Below, piece after piece: positions 3,754-62,525 of a stretch of DNA of 64,000 nt. The stretch lies in the IMG/VR virus record IMGVR_UViG_3300023202_000068, positions 62,001-126,000 of that record. The stretch is one strand, 5' to 3'. The stretch comes from a virus. The notes below the pieces were generated by a model that had not been told where the DNA came from, made no database searches, and saw only the letters and a list, made by a program, of their open reading frames with translations. The position numbers and the translations under genes were made by a program. Each line of letters begins with the position of its first letter. Positions within the stretch are counted from its first letter, which is position 1.

Positions 3754-4024
3754 ACTAACAGACGAAGAGATTCAAAAGTATATCGACAAAATCGACTTCC
3801 CTAGTCCTATTGTAGGGTTTACACTATTTGGTATCACATTCTTTATGTGGAGCAGACCGGAGTTTTACTTTGAGCTTATCGAGACAGAACCTTACGCACT
3901 TGACGGCTCTATGCCTAGCATAATGGTCCACCTAGCTTGGTTTGAGTTTATATTTGAAAGTAAGACTTTGTATAGGTTTTTCTACAAGAGAAAGTATGGC
4001 GAAGAGCCAGCAGGTATGGAGTGA
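3746..4024 (+). CDS. predicted membrane protein
   Basis: A 92-residue protein starting at GTG 3746 in an overlap with the previous gene. It has a hydrophobic stretch (PIVGFTLFGITFFMW) and a second one (MVHLAWFEFIF), then a basic tail (LYRFFYKRKYGEE), so it may cross the membrane twice with the tail in the cytoplasm. No family recognised. Confidence 0.55.
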   Translation: MNKLTDEEIQKYIDKIDFPSPIVGFTLFGITFFMWSRPEFYFELIETEPYALDGSMPSIMVHLAWFEFIFESKTLYRFFYKRKYGEEPAGME

Positions 4025-4986
4025 AAACAATAGTTAAGATGAAGTTTGGCTCACACCTTTATGGGCTTAACACACCTGAGTCAGACACAGACTATAAGGG
4101 TATTTACATTCCTGACCTTAAAGACATTGTACTCCAGCGAGTACCAAAGACTTCCATTAACATGTCTACGGGCTCTGCAGATGGTAAGAATACCAAGGAA
4201 GACGTTGATACTGAAATGTTTACACTGCAGGGCTTTATCAAGATGTGTGCGCAGGGACAGACGGCTGCAGTTGATATGTTGTTTGCACCTGAAGAGATGA
4301 TTATAGAAAGCTCATTCGAGTGGCGCAGGATTCAAGAGCAAAGAGATAAGTTAATTACAGGTAAGGCAGCAGCCTTTGTAGGCTATTGTTATCAACAGGC
4401 TAATAAGTATGGCATCAAGGGGAGTAGGATTAATGCTATAGACACAGTCTTGGCTTTCTTGAGCAAAAAAGACCCAGACATGAAGCTATATATTCCATAC
4501 CACTCTATGTCTCAGGCTTTGGATGGAGTTAAGCATGTGGAGTTTATTAAACTTCCAGTCAAGAAGGGTTCAGATAAAAAAGTAAACGCTGTGGAAGTGT
4601 GTGGTCGTAAGTTTGATGTGTCTGTTAAAATTTCATACATGATCAATGCTTTGGAGAAGATCAAGGATAACTACGGAGATAGAGCCCAACTTGCAAAGAA
4701 AAATAAGGGTATTGATTGGAAGGCTATTTCTCACGCGATGCGCGTATGTATGGAGGCTGAAGAGTTGCTAACTACTGGTCGTGTAACTTTTCCATTCACA
4801 GGTAGAAAAAAGAACTACCTTCTTAATATTAAAAAAGGTGTTTTGGAGTATGACTCTGTTGCACACTCTCTTGAAGAGTATATGCAGCTAATACGGCAGC
4901 TTGAAGAAACTACAACTCTACCTAGGCAGATCGACGTTGACTATTGGGATAACTTTATCTACAATGTCTATACGAGGTCTAGATGA
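4021..4986 (+). CDS. rlaP: RlaP-type nucleotidyltransferase (DNA polymerase beta superfamily)
   Basis: A 321-residue protein. The N-terminus carries the nucleotidyltransferase signature: G10-S11, then D22 and D24 within TPESDTDYKG, the usual GS...DxD metal-binding pattern. This matches the RNA repair pathway polymerase-beta family (RlaP, PF10127), found with RNA ligases in bacteria and phages. It would transfer nucleotides to an RNA or protein end; the true substrate is unknown. GTG 4021 overlaps the preceding stop (GAGTGA). The genome also encodes polynucleotide kinase (27044) and RNA ligase (29882), which fits an RNA repair role. Family call good, role inferred. Confidence 0.8.
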   Translation: MKTIVKMKFGSHLYGLNTPESDTDYKGIYIPDLKDIVLQRVPKTSINMSTGSADGKNTKEDVDTEMFTLQGFIKMCAQGQTAAVDMLFAPEEMIIESSFEWRRIQEQRDKLITGKAAAFVGYCYQQANKYGIKGSRINAIDTVLAFLSKKDPDMKLYIPYHSMSQALDGVKHVEFIKLPVKKGSDKKVNAVEVCGRKFDVSVKISYMINALEKIKDNYGDRAQLAKKNKGIDWKAISHAMRVCMEAEELLTTGRVTFPFTGRKKNYLLNIKKGVLEYDSVAHSLEEYMQLIRQLEETTTLPRQIDVDYWDNFIYNVYTRSR

Positions 4987-5279
4987 TTCAGTGGTTTAAA
5001 GATATATTTACAAGTAAGAAGCCTAAGTTTGAAGTGCGGATATTAAATGAAGTGCTCGACACTATAATAGAGCACCAAGAAGAGCTTGAAATGACCGTAA
5101 GCACAACTAGGGAAGTGATGGAAAAGCCAGGTCTATTCACACATCTTGGAGCTAAAACCAAAGGTAAAGTGTGGGCACTTAACTTCGGGCTACACGTTTT
5201 TTATTACTTAATTGTAGATGATAAGTACGTAATCGTGGAGATTGTTGTACCTAAAAAATTGGGAGACATGTATGGCTAA
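4983..5279 (+). CDS. hypothetical protein
   Basis: A 98-residue protein that overlaps its neighbours at both ends (ATGA at 4983; last 8 bases shared with the next gene). N-terminal MIQWFKDIFTSKKPKFEV, then a helical middle and a strand-rich hydrophobic end (FGLHVFYYLIVDDKYVIVEI). No family recognised; the tight coupling places it with the RlaP and DUF3445 genes. Confidence 0.55.
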   Translation: MIQWFKDIFTSKKPKFEVRILNEVLDTIIEHQEELEMTVSTTREVMEKPGLFTHLGAKTKGKVWALNFGLHVFYYLIVDDKYVIVEIVVPKKLGDMYG

Positions 5280-6231
5280 ACTGGGACACTCAGACCCACA
5301 CAACTATTTTGAACAAGCTATTGGTGACGGCACCATTAAGCCTTCTACACCACGTATGAGTATGATACCTAGTAAAAAGTACGAAAACCCAGTTAAGAAC
5401 AAGATCTTTCAGATAGACCCAGAATATTTTCACATTTACCGCAATACTAAACTCAAAGCACGTGAAGAACGACTTAGTAAATATTACCAACGCACTGAGT
5501 CAGACAATGAAAGGGTAATTGAATTTATCGTAGATAAGCTAGTTGAGGAATACCCAGACTTGTTTGAGTATTGGTACTACGAAGATAATGTTTGGCTACC
5601 ACACCACTTGAGGTGCCACTTGACTGGTGACAATCTAATGTTTGATCAAAATTGGAAGTTGACCGCACATAAAGTTTACATTGACTCTTTTGATGCCCTG
5701 GCTATGCAAGTTCCTGAAGACCTAGTGATTCACTACTCTAATAGTGACAGAGACTACGCCGGATACATACACTTGTGTCACGCTAACGGCTGGAATGCAG
5801 AGTGGGCAATAGATAAAGACTTCCAATGGGTACATAAAGAGGTAGAGAATATTGACAAGATGATACCAAGACCTAAAGCACTGGTTGACGGCATTATTAA
5901 GTCTGGTAGAACTACAGAGCGTGTTGGTGCAATTAGCTTTAGAACCAATACAGAGTTGAATAGGCATCCTGATGATGAACCAGAAGATGCCAATAAGTTT
6001 AACGCAGAAAATCCAGAGCTGTATATGAGAGTGGAAAGGCAGACTATCAATCCTTTTCCCGATGAAGGCTGTTTCTTGTTTACGATCAAAACTTACTTTG
6101 TAAACTGCGACCACCCAGAGGCAGATAAGAGAGATAAGATCATCAAGGCTTTTGAAAAAGATACAACTAAAGTATATTCACACTGGTTCTTCGATAAGTA
6201 CAAGGATCAAGTATTGGAGTGGTTGAAATGA
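5272..6231 (+). CDS. DUF3445 / heme-dependent oxidative N-demethylase-like protein
   Basis: A 319-residue protein. The start at ATG 5272 is 6-7 bases from GGGAGA and overlaps the previous stop; the in-frame start at 5242 is inside the neighbour. The motif MRVERQTINPFPDEGCFLFT (residues about 251-270) is the family hallmark of DUF3445 (PF11927, HODM alpha-subunit-like); the block DALAMQVPEDLVIHY corresponds to the conserved VQEDL region. Family members are bacterial and fungal heme proteins linked to oxidative demethylation of amines. Length fits the family. No reductase partner gene is seen nearby. Family call is from motif memory; activity in a phage is unproven. Confidence 0.72.
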   Translation: MAKLGHSDPHNYFEQAIGDGTIKPSTPRMSMIPSKKYENPVKNKIFQIDPEYFHIYRNTKLKAREERLSKYYQRTESDNERVIEFIVDKLVEEYPDLFEYWYYEDNVWLPHHLRCHLTGDNLMFDQNWKLTAHKVYIDSFDALAMQVPEDLVIHYSNSDRDYAGYIHLCHANGWNAEWAIDKDFQWVHKEVENIDKMIPRPKALVDGIIKSGRTTERVGAISFRTNTELNRHPDDEPEDANKFNAENPELYMRVERQTINPFPDEGCFLFTIKTYFVNCDHPEADKRDKIIKAFEKDTTKVYSHWFFDKYKDQVLEWLK

Positions 6232-6645: not shown

Positions 6646-6972
6646 GTGGTTAAGTTAAACAGAAGAAAGTTTTTACAAATCATGGGTTCAGTAGCTGCTG
6701 CTGCAGTCTTGCCAGGACACTTTCCAAAACCAGAGCCTGAAAAGATTTCTGTAGATGAAGTAGAGCCGGTAGTACTAATAAACACCGATGGTGGAGAACT
6801 TACACTTGAAAAGATTGAGGAAGCAGCAATTATGGCTGCTCAGCAACATGGTCAACCAGACATGCTCTTGATACCAGAGGAAAGTTTCAAAGCCCTTTTG
6901 GAGATTACTGAAGAAGAATATTGTGAGATACTTAGAGTTAATCCAAGAGTATCGGAGTGCATCGTTGCGTAA
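6646..6972 (+). CDS. small protein with a twin-arginine (Tat) signal
   Basis: A 108-residue product. GTG 6646 follows the previous stop by two bases and has GGGAG upstream; an in-frame GTG at 6631 would overlap the neighbour. The N-terminus NRRKFLQIMGSVAAAAVLPG is a textbook Tat signal: twin Arg, Phe-Leu, then a moderately hydrophobic helix. The mature part is acidic (PEPEKISVDEVEPVVLINTD). Tat passengers are normally folded or cofactor-bound; no cofactor motif is seen here. Tat signals are rare on phage proteins. Confidence 0.6.
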   Translation: MVKLNRRKFLQIMGSVAAAAVLPGHFPKPEPEKISVDEVEPVVLINTDGGELTLEKIEEAAIMAAQQHGQPDMLLIPEESFKALLEITEEEYCEILRVNPRVSECIVA

Positions 6973-7378
6973 CCTGAGCTATATACGTTTTCTAGGGTTT
7001 ATCATAATCGCAATGTATCTTACAGCGTGCTCTTCAACCTATGTTCACCGCGACATGCGCAAGTACGTAGATAGGTATAAAATATACAAAAAAGACTACC
7101 TTGGGACTGATGAGCTATATTACCCCATTCATTTTGTGATCGAGCCGATAGACGACGGTGATGCCGTAGGAACTTGTGATCAGCGCATATTGAGTAGGAA
7201 TGGGGAGAAGGCTAGAGTTGTAACTGTTGACATTCACTGGTGGGCAAGGGTTACAGATTCAGACCGTGAGGTAATGATCTTACACGAGCTTGGACACTGT
7301 GACCTAGATATACACGAACACACAGTAATGAAGCTGCAGAGAGCGGCTTTTGAAAACAAGGAGACAAGAGATGTCTAA
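6965..7378 (+). CDS. lipoprotein with HExxH zinc-peptidase motif
   Basis: A 137-residue product. TTG 6965 is placed 6 bases after GGAG; an ATG at 6923 in frame adds 14 residues. The signal ends in LTAC, a lipobox. Residues HELGHCDLDIHEH hold an HExxH motif with further His residues that could complete a zinc site, followed by a Met (TVMKL) where related peptidases have a Met-turn. The same layout recurs in the gene at 19440 (YVEYK..YLGTD and HELGHCDL), so the two are paralogues. Likely an envelope-anchored zinc peptidase or a scaffold derived from one. Confidence 0.65.
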   Translation: MRNLSYIRFLGFIIIAMYLTACSSTYVHRDMRKYVDRYKIYKKDYLGTDELYYPIHFVIEPIDDGDAVGTCDQRILSRNGEKARVVTVDIHWWARVTDSDREVMILHELGHCDLDIHEHTVMKLQRAAFENKETRDV

Positions 7379-8444
7379 AGAGTATAAATACGCCGTATTT
7401 ATCGGCAGATTCCAACCCTTCCATAGTTCACACTATGACGTAGCCCTCCAAGGGCTTGAAATTGCAGAAGAATTAATATTCGTAATCGGTTCTGCAAACT
7501 CAGCTAGAAATGTAAAAAATCCATTCACATCACAAGAGCGCAAAGCCATGATATTGTCGGCTTTTGAACCTCATGAGACAAAGAACCTACATTTTATTGA
7601 CGCACGAGACTATCACTACAATGACTTGTTGTGGGTGACGCAAATCCAAAACAGCATTAACCAGATTGTTGAAAACGGTGACCCTGTTGTTCTAATCGGT
7701 AACGTGAAGGATCAGAGTTCTTACTACGTCAAGTATTTTCCACAGTATGACTTCATGCCTATTCGCACAGGCAATGTCATGCAGGATGCTACGGATATTC
7801 GTAATAAGATGTTTGATGTTGAGTTAAAAAGTGCATGGACTGACAGCGGTGTAGGTAAAGTTGACACGACCCATACTATAAATCTTACAAACGAAGTTCC
7901 ACAAGGCGTTAACGACATGATCAATGGCTTCATGGCAACAGACGAGTATAAAGATCTTGTGAAAGAGTTTGAGTTTTTAAAAGACTATAAGTCTAAATGG
8001 GATTCAGCTCCTTATCCTCCGACTTTTATTACGGCTGATGCTGTTGTAACTTGTTCAGGTCATGTATTGGTTGTAAGGCGCGGTTTCAATCCAGGTAAAG
8101 GCCAACTTGCAATGCCAGGAGGGTTTGTCCGACCAACAGAGAAAATCAAAGACGCAGCACTTAGAGAGTTAAAGGAAGAGACTAGGATTAGACTTGACAA
8201 GCTTGTGCTTGATAACGCTATAATACATTCTAAGGTGTTTGACCATCCAGGTAGATCACTGCGTGGTCGCACGGTTACACACGCATATCATATTAAGTTG
8301 AAAGACGGCAGACTTCCTGAGGTAAAAGCAGGTGACGATGCTGATAAGGCATATTGGGTGCCGTTTGCAGACGTTTACAAGCAAGAGACAGATTTTTTTG
8401 AGGACCATTTTCATATTGTAAGTTATTTTTTAAACCAAAGGTAA
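7371..8444 (+). CDS. nadM: bifunctional NMN adenylyltransferase (NadM type) / Nudix hydrolase
   Basis: A 357-residue two-domain protein. Start ATG 7371 follows AAGGAG by 6 bases. The N-terminal domain has GRFQPFHSSH (residues 12-21), the nucleotide-binding HxxH motif of NadM-type adenylyltransferases, which make NAD+ from NMN and ATP. The C-terminal domain has a full Nudix box starting with GGFVRPTE near residue 249 and continuing AALRELKEET. The same fusion is known from Synechocystis and from vibriophage KVP40 (natV). It lies directly before NadV, giving nicotinamide to NMN to NAD+. The Nudix half may remove ADP-ribose or other damaged nucleotides. Confidence 0.93.
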   Translation: MSKEYKYAVFIGRFQPFHSSHYDVALQGLEIAEELIFVIGSANSARNVKNPFTSQERKAMILSAFEPHETKNLHFIDARDYHYNDLLWVTQIQNSINQIVENGDPVVLIGNVKDQSSYYVKYFPQYDFMPIRTGNVMQDATDIRNKMFDVELKSAWTDSGVGKVDTTHTINLTNEVPQGVNDMINGFMATDEYKDLVKEFEFLKDYKSKWDSAPYPPTFITADAVVTCSGHVLVVRRGFNPGKGQLAMPGGFVRPTEKIKDAALRELKEETRIRLDKLVLDNAIIHSKVFDHPGRSLRGRTVTHAYHIKLKDGRLPEVKAGDDADKAYWVPFADVYKQETDFFEDHFHIVSYFLNQR

Positions 8445-8480
8445 GACAGAGAGTTTTACCGGAAAACAAGGAGATCAAAA

Positions 8481-9848
8481 ATGATCACAGATAACATAAT
8501 TCTACTAACAGATAGTTACAAAGTAACCCACTGGAAACAGTATAAACCTGGAACATCAAATGTGTATTCGTACTTCGAGTCACGTGGTGGATTATTCCCC
8601 GAAGTCGTATTTTTTGGGCTTCAGTATTATTTACAAGAGTATTTGTCAAAACCAGTGACAATGGAAATGATTGATGAAGCTGAAAGCTACTTCACAGGTC
8701 ACTTCGGAGACAAGTCACTATTTAACCGTGAGGCTTGGGAGTATATTGTAACTGAGCACGATGGTAAACTACCTATTAGAATCAAAGCTGTACCGGAAGG
8801 TACTGTTGTAAAAGTTAGCAACACCATGATGTCTGTTGAAGCCACTGACCCTAAGTGTTACTGGCTAACAAACTATATGGAAACAGTCTTATCACAAGTT
8901 TGGTATGGCTCTACAGTTGCTACATACTCACGTGAAATAAAGAAAGTTATTAATCAATATTTAGAAAAGACTGGAGATACAAGTGGTATTAATTTCAAAC
9001 TTCACGATTTTGGTTTTCGCGGAGTATCTTCTGTGGAGTCTTCAGGTGTTGGCGGTGCTGCTCACCTTGTTAACTTCATGGGAACTGATACGCTCTCCGC
9101 ACTGGTCGTTGCTAGAAAAAATTATTCCTCTGACATTGCTGGGTTCTCTATCCCTGCTTCTGAGCATAGCACTATGACAAGTTGGGGAGGACAGTACTCT
9201 GAGGTTGATGCGATGAGAAACATGATTAAACAGTATGGATCTTCTCCAATCTTCGCGTGCGTGTCTGACTCATATGATGTATACAGAGCTTGCAAAGAGT
9301 ATTGGGGTAAGCAGTTAAAAGACGATCTTATGGAAGTTGACGGGACTTTGGTTGTAAGGCCTGATTCTGGAACGCCGCACAAGGTAACGCTAGAGTGCAT
9401 TGAGCTATTGGGTGAAGCTTTTGGTTACAGCGTTAATGAAAAAAGTTACAAAGTCCTAGACCCTAAAGTTAGGCTCATTTGGGGTGACGGTATTGACTAC
9501 GACGGTGTAAGAAAGATCTTGTCTACCCTTGAGCAGAATGGCTGGAGCGCAGATAATATTGCTTTTGGAATGGGTGGAGGCTTGCTTCAAAAGCTTAACC
9601 GAGACACACAAAAGTTCGCGTTCAAATGCTCTAGTATGACTGACGAAAGAGGTAATGAGCACGATGTGTACAAAGCCCCTATCACCGATGGAGGTAAGAC
9701 CTCTAAGAAGGGTAGGATGAGTCTGGTAGAAGGCAAGACTGTCAAAAAGGACAATCACCCTGAAGATATGCTCAAAGTGGTATATGAGAATGGTGAGGTT
9801 AAGCTTACCACGACACTTGATGAGATTAGAGACAGAGCTAAGTTGTAA
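8481..9848 (+). CDS. nadV: nicotinamide phosphoribosyltransferase (NadV)
   Basis: A 455-residue protein of typical NAMPT length. It begins with NIILLTDSYKVTHWKQY, the family's N-terminal signature, followed by the YFESRGG block; the phosphoribosyl-binding and active-site regions are recognisable (FKLHDFGFRGVSSVES; VVRPDSGTP; FGMGGGLLQKLNRDTQKFA). It joins nicotinamide and PRPP to give NMN. AAGGAGATC precedes ATG. With the NadM-Nudix gene it forms a complete salvage route from nicotinamide to NAD+, the arrangement reported in phages as a counter to NAD-depleting defences. A strong terminator follows. Confidence 0.95.
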   Translation: MITDNIILLTDSYKVTHWKQYKPGTSNVYSYFESRGGLFPEVVFFGLQYYLQEYLSKPVTMEMIDEAESYFTGHFGDKSLFNREAWEYIVTEHDGKLPIRIKAVPEGTVVKVSNTMMSVEATDPKCYWLTNYMETVLSQVWYGSTVATYSREIKKVINQYLEKTGDTSGINFKLHDFGFRGVSSVESSGVGGAAHLVNFMGTDTLSALVVARKNYSSDIAGFSIPASEHSTMTSWGGQYSEVDAMRNMIKQYGSSPIFACVSDSYDVYRACKEYWGKQLKDDLMEVDGTLVVRPDSGTPHKVTLECIELLGEAFGYSVNEKSYKVLDPKVRLIWGDGIDYDGVRKILSTLEQNGWSADNIAFGMGGGLLQKLNRDTQKFAFKCSSMTDERGNEHDVYKAPITDGGKTSKKGRMSLVEGKTVKKDNHPEDMLKVVYENGEVKLTTTLDEIRDRAKL

Positions 9849-9861
9849 TTATTACTAATAA

Positions 9862-9904
9862 ACACCGTCATTAGTATAAAAAACGTACTAATGACGGTGT
9901 ATTG
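9862..9904 (+). terminator. strong hairpin after nadV
   Basis: A perfect 15-bp stem (9862-9876 with 9886-9900, ACACCGTCATTAGTA) around a 9-base loop. The T tract that follows is interrupted (ATTGCGTTTT), and the loop side is A-rich, so it may also stop transcription from the other side. It separates the metabolic operon from the tail operon. Confidence 0.85.
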
Positions 9905-17587: not shown

Positions 17588-17594
17588 TAAACAT

Positions 17595-17667
17595 GATGCT
17601 GTAGCTCAGTTGGTAGAGCAATGGATTGATAAACCATAGGACGGGGGTTCAAGTCCCTCCAGCATTG
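17595..17667 (+). tRNA. trnI: tRNA-Ile (anticodon GAT)
   Basis: A full 73-base cloverleaf: acceptor GATGCTG/CAGCATT, D stem GCTC/GAGC, anticodon loop TTGATAA with GAT at 17628-17630, T arm GGGGG/CCCTC around TTCAAGT. The lowest anticodon-stem pair is an A-A mismatch and the discriminator base is G, both unusual for Ile. CCA is not encoded. It reads AUC/AUU, common codons in this AT-rich genome. Confidence 0.88.
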
Positions 17668-17770
17668 GTTCTGCCGTTGGCAATTATCTAGGATACTGTA
17701 TTGCTGCAGCCTAGTGAGCCGCAGGTAGTTTAGCCGAACCCATAGGTACAGACAGCAATTGAACTATGGG
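17668..17770 (+). ncRNA. candidate structured RNA with complementary hairpin loops
   Basis: No convincing ORF in this 103-base stretch between the tRNA and a terminator. Two hairpins can be drawn: A, CTAGG 17688-17692 with CCTAG 17710-17714; and B, CCCATAG 17739-17745 with CTATGGG 17764-17770. The loop of A contains ATTGCTG (17700-17706) and the loop of B contains CAGCAAT (17753-17759), which are perfectly complementary, so the loops could kiss. It is probably co-transcribed with the tRNA. The identity of the RNA is unknown. Confidence 0.45.
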
Positions 17771-61895: not shown

Positions 61896-62525
61896 ATGGC
61901 AAGAATAGCAATTGTAATGAAAGTAACACAAGGACCTTGGACTGAAGGTCAAATCGCAACATGGTATGACGCAGAAGCACCTAATCAAAAAGGATATGGT
62001 GGACCATGGGGTAACGCCTCTATGTCTGAACACGTTCAACTAGGTGAAGGTCTAGATGAGAGAAAAGTTGTTTCAGAACTAGTTCCAGATACATGGACTA
62101 AAGAGGGTGAAAGCGATGTTACTGAAGACCCAAATGATCTAGAGTGGACATTTGTTCCAGAACATTATGCACTAGTAGAGGATGCGACTAAGGCTTCTGA
62201 AGTAGACGCTGCCGACGCAGACGCTGCCGTAAGAGGTGCTTTAAGATCAGCAATGGCTCTTGGCAATCAAATTATCGAAGACTTTGCAGCAGAGAATATT
62301 GTACTTGGAATTACTGCAGATGGAATGACTGGTGATGTTTTGACAGCTATGGCACCTGTAATGGATGCACTTAGAACTGGCTCACTTCACGAGGCAATTG
62401 CAAGAGCAAAGGCAATTCCAGCAGAAGATAAAGATGTAAAATATGTTACAGATGCAAGGTTACTTGAAGCTGTAAACAGAATGGAAGAGCACTTAGGAAT
62501 TGACCCTATCTCTGCAACTCTGTAG
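61896..62525 (+). CDS. C-terminal gene of the fibre operon, hypothetical
   Basis: A 209-residue protein with AGAAGGAG before ATG. N-terminus (MARIAIVMKVTQGPWTEGQI), acidic middle, helical C-terminal (MAPVMDALRTGSLHEAIARA; RLLEAVNRMEEHLGIDP). It may be a fibre assembly chaperone or a small tail protein. The stop lies one base from the 3' end of the minus-strand thymidylate synthase gene, with no clear terminator between. Confidence 0.6.
   Translation: MARIAIVMKVTQGPWTEGQIATWYDAEAPNQKGYGGPWGNASMSEHVQLGEGLDERKVVSELVPDTWTKEGESDVTEDPNDLEWTFVPEHYALVEDATKASEVDAADADAAVRGALRSAMALGNQIIEDFAAENIVLGITADGMTGDVLTAMAPVMDALRTGSLHEAIARAKAIPAEDKDVKYVTDARLLEAVNRMEEHLGIDPISATL

Follow-up and report, generated by a model that had tools for sequence, protein, structure and literature searches.

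What does a protein of a heme-dependent demethylase family do in a phage, and is demethylation its likely chemistry? The question is raised by one gene in a stretch of 64,000 nucleotides (the window), positions 62,001 to 126,000 of the IMG/VR record IMGVR_UViG_3300023202_000068, a virus record of 153,539 bases (153.5 kb). The record encodes portal, terminase, tail sheath and baseplate proteins together with a DNA polymerase and an RNR large subunit. These structural and replication genes bear out the phage context given to the gene in the first-pass annotation, and they identify the virus as a tailed phage whose tail is contractile. An aerobic NrdA-like PHROG is among the matches of the RNR large subunit, in keeping with a supply of O2. 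The possibility that the record is contaminated by bacterial DNA was considered and ruled out by a GC content of about 0.40 matching the surroundings, by the flanking phage genes and by the occurrence of the gene in four further IMG/VR phage lineages. The features discussed are collected in Table 1.

Table 1. Features at and around the HODM-like gene, in window positions (position 1 is the first letter of the window).
Feature	Position	Strand	Remark
RlaP-like nucleotidyltransferase (PF10127; phrog_388)	4021..4986	+	upstream of HODM-like gene
98-aa ORF, no family match	4983..5279	+	overlaps start of HODM-like gene by 8 bases
GGGAG, ribosome-binding-site-like	5260..5264	+	about 7 nt before ATG 5272
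PF11927 (HODM alpha-like) heme-PAS protein	5272..6231	+	319 aa
QWVHKEV codons (residues 185-191)	5824..5844	+	includes H188, candidate axial heme ligand; aligns with HODM H194
TERVGAISF codons (residues 215-223), phage-only strand	5914..5940	+	W-to-I/V change, one-residue insertion
RVERQT...LFT block codons (residues 253-271)	6028..6084	+	R253, E255 and F270 align with HODM R264, E266 and F281
Bifunctional NMN adenylyltransferase / NUDIX protein	7350..8444	+	domain matches
NAMPT/NAPRTase-family protein	8481..9848	+	NAMPT_N plus NAPRTase domains
Terminator-like hairpin directly after NAMPT	9862..9900	+	consensus match only

The open reading frame starts with an ATG and has no internal stops, and a search across the entire record found a single copy of the gene. 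The first-pass annotation had called the product a DUF3445/heme N-demethylase-like protein with an intact RVERQT...LFT block, and had proposed a PF11927 HMM search as a check. That search gave a strong match (E 1.9e-25 and 90.2 bits, with the gathering score at 25 bits), which was the only Pfam match of the product; residues 43-313 cover positions 8-271 of the 273 positions in the profile, i.e. nearly its full length. The block is intact as claimed. The protein had no matches in PHROGs, NCBIfam or PADLOC, and searches of the literature and of PHROGs found neither a prior report nor a PHROG for this family in phages.

An AlphaFold2 model of the protein (mean pLDDT 79.5, pTM 0.82) matched, along its full length, the HODM alpha subunit of Pseudomonas mendocina (5LTE, 5LTH, 5LTI), a protein with the same PF11927-type fold; the TM was 0.70, with 296 alignment columns against 5LTH/5LTE (5LTH E 1.7e-10). 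LOV/PAS sensors were far weaker matches (E about 1e-3), and none of the BFVD viral models matched below E 0.001. The family call of the first-pass annotation therefore stands on both the profile and the fold, and a chance occurrence of the motif is ruled out by the HMM, the fold and the tree described below. HODM is reportedly the earliest case of a PAS domain with proven enzyme activity. For the phage protein, 'N-demethylase' is a family name and not a demonstrated function, and the demethylation of an amine, a modified nucleotide or a methylated protein that the first-pass annotation suggested stays a conjecture.

The phage protein is about 15-18% identical to HODM alpha, and the HODM residues D156, W180, H194, R224, R264, E266 and F281 are conserved in it. 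In phage numbering, the four phage rows of the alignment, HODM and all 61 bacterial rows without exception share D150, W174, H188, R217, R253 and E255; when a further phage sequence (L115) was added, D150, W174, H188, R253 and E255 held. The PAS region of HODM spans residues 155-290 (PMC8694187). H188 is likely to be the axial heme ligand, since it aligns with H194 inside this region, H194 itself being the presumed ligand in HODM. A loss of heme-ligand residues, which the first-pass annotation had named as evidence against its call, was not seen, as the candidate histidine is kept.

The strand beside this conserved core is changed. The cellular 'RFAWG' or 'RLNW' is replaced by 'RVGAISF' or similar in phages, with one residue inserted. 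The tryptophan W227 of HODM, common to HODM and all 61 bacterial rows, gives way to I or V in each of the four phages compared by column (I in the protein studied here), and L115 carries the same changed motif (VGSVSF). W227 probably lines the HODM pocket. The phage proteins also lack a YK pair close to the C terminus, and with both this pair and the tryptophan lost the activity may be altered or absent. An altered pocket with a preserved heme site would be the simplest reading of the residue pattern.

A motif-based scan of genome contigs found at least 80 cellular PF11927 loci, and these fell into two groups in a full-length comparison. The near group scored 96-149 bits, plus one truncated copy, and comprises Bacteroidota and Gammaproteobacteria, with one member each from Cyanobacteriota, Latescibacterota and others. 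The far group scored 37-59 bits and is mainly from Alphaproteobacteria and Actinomycetota. In the tree the four phage proteins formed one clade (100/100) placed inside the near group (100/100), and a 100/100 branch separated them and the near group from HODM. One phage clade implies either a single phage lineage of the gene that spread among phages or a gene that is old in them. Judged from alignment and tree, the phage proteins branch off from a bacterial orphan subfamily as a group found in phages alone, outside the dimethylamine-demethylating HODM/Dmm clade.

This orphan subfamily (L009-L017, L024, L025, L028, L029, L038, L040, L046, L056, L060, L070, L079 and L081; Bacteroidota, Gammaproteobacteria, Cyanobacteriota and others) consists of single genes with no conserved partner and shows 26-33% identity to the phage protein. 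Its members keep an RFAWG...NHHP motif and a C-terminal YKG, whereas the phages have lost both. One bench result was found for a DUF3445 protein and no other: the protein, from a metagenomic clone, conferred salt tolerance in E. coli (PMC5809485), which is at most a lead to function.

HODM has reductase (flavin / 2Fe-2S) and tetrahydrofolate-binding GcvT subunits, and Dmm is presumably the same enzyme type. DmmDABC of Ruegeria pomeroyi demethylates a secondary amine, a proven chemistry close to this family, and needs dmmABC together (PMC5520151), whereas the phage has one gene and no partner subunits. Dimethylamine is an unlikely substrate of the phage protein, because its clade differs from that of HODM and the strand beside the conserved core is changed. 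A true dimethylamine N-demethylase supplying carbon or nitrogen would agree with the family and the fold; with HODM in another clade, W227 replaced in the phages, and the reductase and tetrahydrofolate subunits missing from the record, we regard it as very improbable.

The remark in the first-pass annotation that no reductase partner is adjacent is true and extends to the whole record, in which the search for reductase genes that it had proposed found none of the searched families. The domains sought were FNR-type NAD-binding (PF00175), 2Fe-2S ferredoxin (PF00111), pyridine-nucleotide oxidoreductase (PF07992), flavodoxin (PF00258) and GcvT (PF01571, tetrahydrofolate-binding). None was found in the phage records searched, which may be incomplete, and the controls were positive. 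The remark is less telling than it seemed, because the scanned bacterial neighbours also show no conserved redox partner. These neighbour scans covered the 25 commonest Pfam families per alignment scan, so that a partner at a single locus could be missed. Among the neighbour families listed no redox partner recurs near far-group genes, and near-group genes have no neighbour family in common beyond close relatives. Bacterial gene neighbourhoods gave no lead on function, since the shared neighbours that were found track species relatedness (a PQQ dehydrogenase in three Flammeovirgaceae and a biotin ligase in three Gammaproteobacteria). If the phage protein has enzyme activity, its electrons have to come from the host.

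The same observations bear on the main rival explanation, a heme-PAS sensor or binder without catalysis, responding to O2, NO or redox state, or holding a small signalling molecule, e.g. as a sponge against NAD-based defence. PAS domains are mostly sensors and the LOV/PAS matches of the model are in line with this, as are the remodelled strand and the lack of an encoded redox partner. However, no output domain is fused to the protein, and the residues kept are HODM's own (H194, R264, E266), which favours retained chemistry. We consider non-catalytic binding unlikely, although it is the strongest of the competing explanations.

Relatives of the gene in other phages were sought in two collections. 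Among 50,697 GenBank phage records there were no DNA relatives of the first 25 kb and no protein relatives of the phage HODM-like protein (P0001; tblastn). IMG/VR pattern scans also missed the phage relatives, which were recovered by a subfamily alignment and a phage-only alignment. The subfamily alignment gave L089 (127 kb), L090 and L091 (64.6 and 48 kb, near-identical) and L092 (320 kb), and a phage-only fragment alignment added L114 and L115 (53.6 and 51.2 kb), which are one lineage related to L092. PF11927 scored above cut-off in all five distinct phage records tested.

Five phages were compared: the present one (G000), G001, G002 (the 64.6-kb record), G004 and the L114/L115 lineage. Apart from the HODM-like gene, NAMPT and a few more, there is little in common between G000, G001, G002 and the retrieved part of G004. 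Between G004 and L115 the HODM-like gene is 53% conserved against mostly 58-83% for most of the genes around it, which suggests that the gene evolves fast. The jumbo-phage relatives L092 and L115 have in common a block of NAMPT, an HxGH nucleotidyltransferase, the HODM-like gene, an RNA ligase, PTH2 and Ro60, after which comes a GroEL-like gene on the opposite strand.

On the same strand 3' of the HODM-like gene lie three small ORFs, then the adjacent NMN adenylyltransferase/NUDIX and NAMPT genes (1.1-3.6 kb downstream) and the hairpin. The only other + strand terminator-like site between 3900 and 10000 is a weak consensus match at 4371, inside the RlaP-like gene. Four of the five phages, of which three are otherwise largely dissimilar, have NAMPT near the HODM-like gene, with gaps of 2.3 kb in G000, 0.9 kb in G001, 5.9 kb in G004 and about 4.4 kb in the L114/L115 lineage; no NAMPT was found in the G002 record, which may be a fragment. 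Under random placement of both genes the combined chance of the proximity in G000, G001 and G004 is 0.004 (Fisher), a value that overstates the linkage because NAMPT is common in phages (a NAMPT-like gene is found in 1,913 of the 50,697 GenBank phage records) and accessory genes cluster anyway. That the gene repeatedly lies near genes for NAMPT and NMN adenylyltransferase is a weak sign of a link to nicotinamide/NAD metabolism.

The pair at 7350-9848 is of the type used in phage counter-defence. In NARP1, phages reconstitute NAD+ by NAMPT plus an NMN adenylyltransferase (PMC12774641), and the corresponding NAMPT-family and NMNAT-NUDIX genes are present here. No such module is known to include an HODM-like gene, and PF11927 occurs in 0 of the 50,697 GenBank phage records. 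For a non-catalytic sensor or binder, the nearby NAD salvage genes and their counter-defence use in other phages (NARP1, PMC12774641) count in favour and the lack of a PADLOC match counts against.

A further proposal is that the protein N-demethylates 1-methylnicotinamide or trigonelline, giving nicotinamide or nicotinate for NAMPT and the NMN adenylyltransferase. N-demethylation, which a PDB title names, is the sole chemistry known to have been proven in the PF11927 family, and both NAMPT and an adenylyltransferase lie near the HODM-like gene in four of five phages. Set against this, the chemistry of quaternary pyridinium substrates differs from that of dimethylamine, the neighbours listed for the bacterial relatives include no recurring NAD gene, and the frequency of NAMPT in phages lowers the weight of its proximity. 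We find this specific reaction hard to credit, slightly more so than the role in RNA repair that the other flank brings up.

Such a role, oxidative demethylation or another modification of RNA or tRNA, is suggested by the RlaP-like nucleotidyltransferase one gene upstream in G000, by an RNA ligase that immediately neighbours the gene in G004 and is nearby in L114/L115, followed by PTH2 and Ro60, and by an RNA ligase about 4 kb upstream in G002. However, many large phages have RNA ligases; no RNA-binding domain was recognised in the phage protein, the HODM substrate is very small, and among the scanned L089 neighbours no RNA ligase was recognised. Action on RNA is in our judgement improbable.

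The reading we prefer, with about even confidence, is a stand-alone heme-PAS oxidase or oxygenase, encoded by an auxiliary gene, that uses host electrons and is perhaps tied to NAD salvage. The phage would make a single-subunit, presumably heme-binding PAS-fold member of PF11927 with a putative O2-dependent heme oxidase or oxygenase activity. Its electron donor would be ferredoxin, flavodoxin or flavin of the host, and what it oxidises during infection would be a small molecule, perhaps an N-alkyl compound. The gene would then serve as an auxiliary metabolic or counter-defence gene, with a possible tie to NAD. A bolder version gives a phage heme-PAS oxygenase a place as the third component of phage NAD+ salvage and counter-defence, where it would either produce or unmask a precursor of the nicotinamide type or destroy a signal derived from NAD; this we consider improbable as well. 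If active, the protein would bring a heme oxidase into the auxiliary repertoire of phages, and the phage clade gives a concrete handle on the function of the large orphan part of PF11927.

Some further observations were made around these genes. SLOG-like proteins (GFTGTQxGMT) lie close to the HODM-like gene at L097 6992-7432 and L100 2017-2451; they are 47% identical, with a Pfam score below cut-off, and are common to the dissimilar phages G001 and G004. A 251-aa ORF (L104 7574-8329) overlapping the HODM-like start in G002 resembled a class II aminoacyl-tRNA synthetase by eye and was rejected, as Pfam and PDB gave no match. In the window, positions 6923-7378 hold a 151-aa lipoprotein-like ORF with a HELGHC zinc-metallopeptidase motif (PF18894 match weak, below cut-off). 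A 215-aa ORF at 1408-2055, without a Pfam or PHROG match, has an alanine-rich repeat (AAAEAAAGAA-like) in its C-terminal third. A tRNA-Ile (GAT) at 17594-17668 is the only tRNA found in the window.
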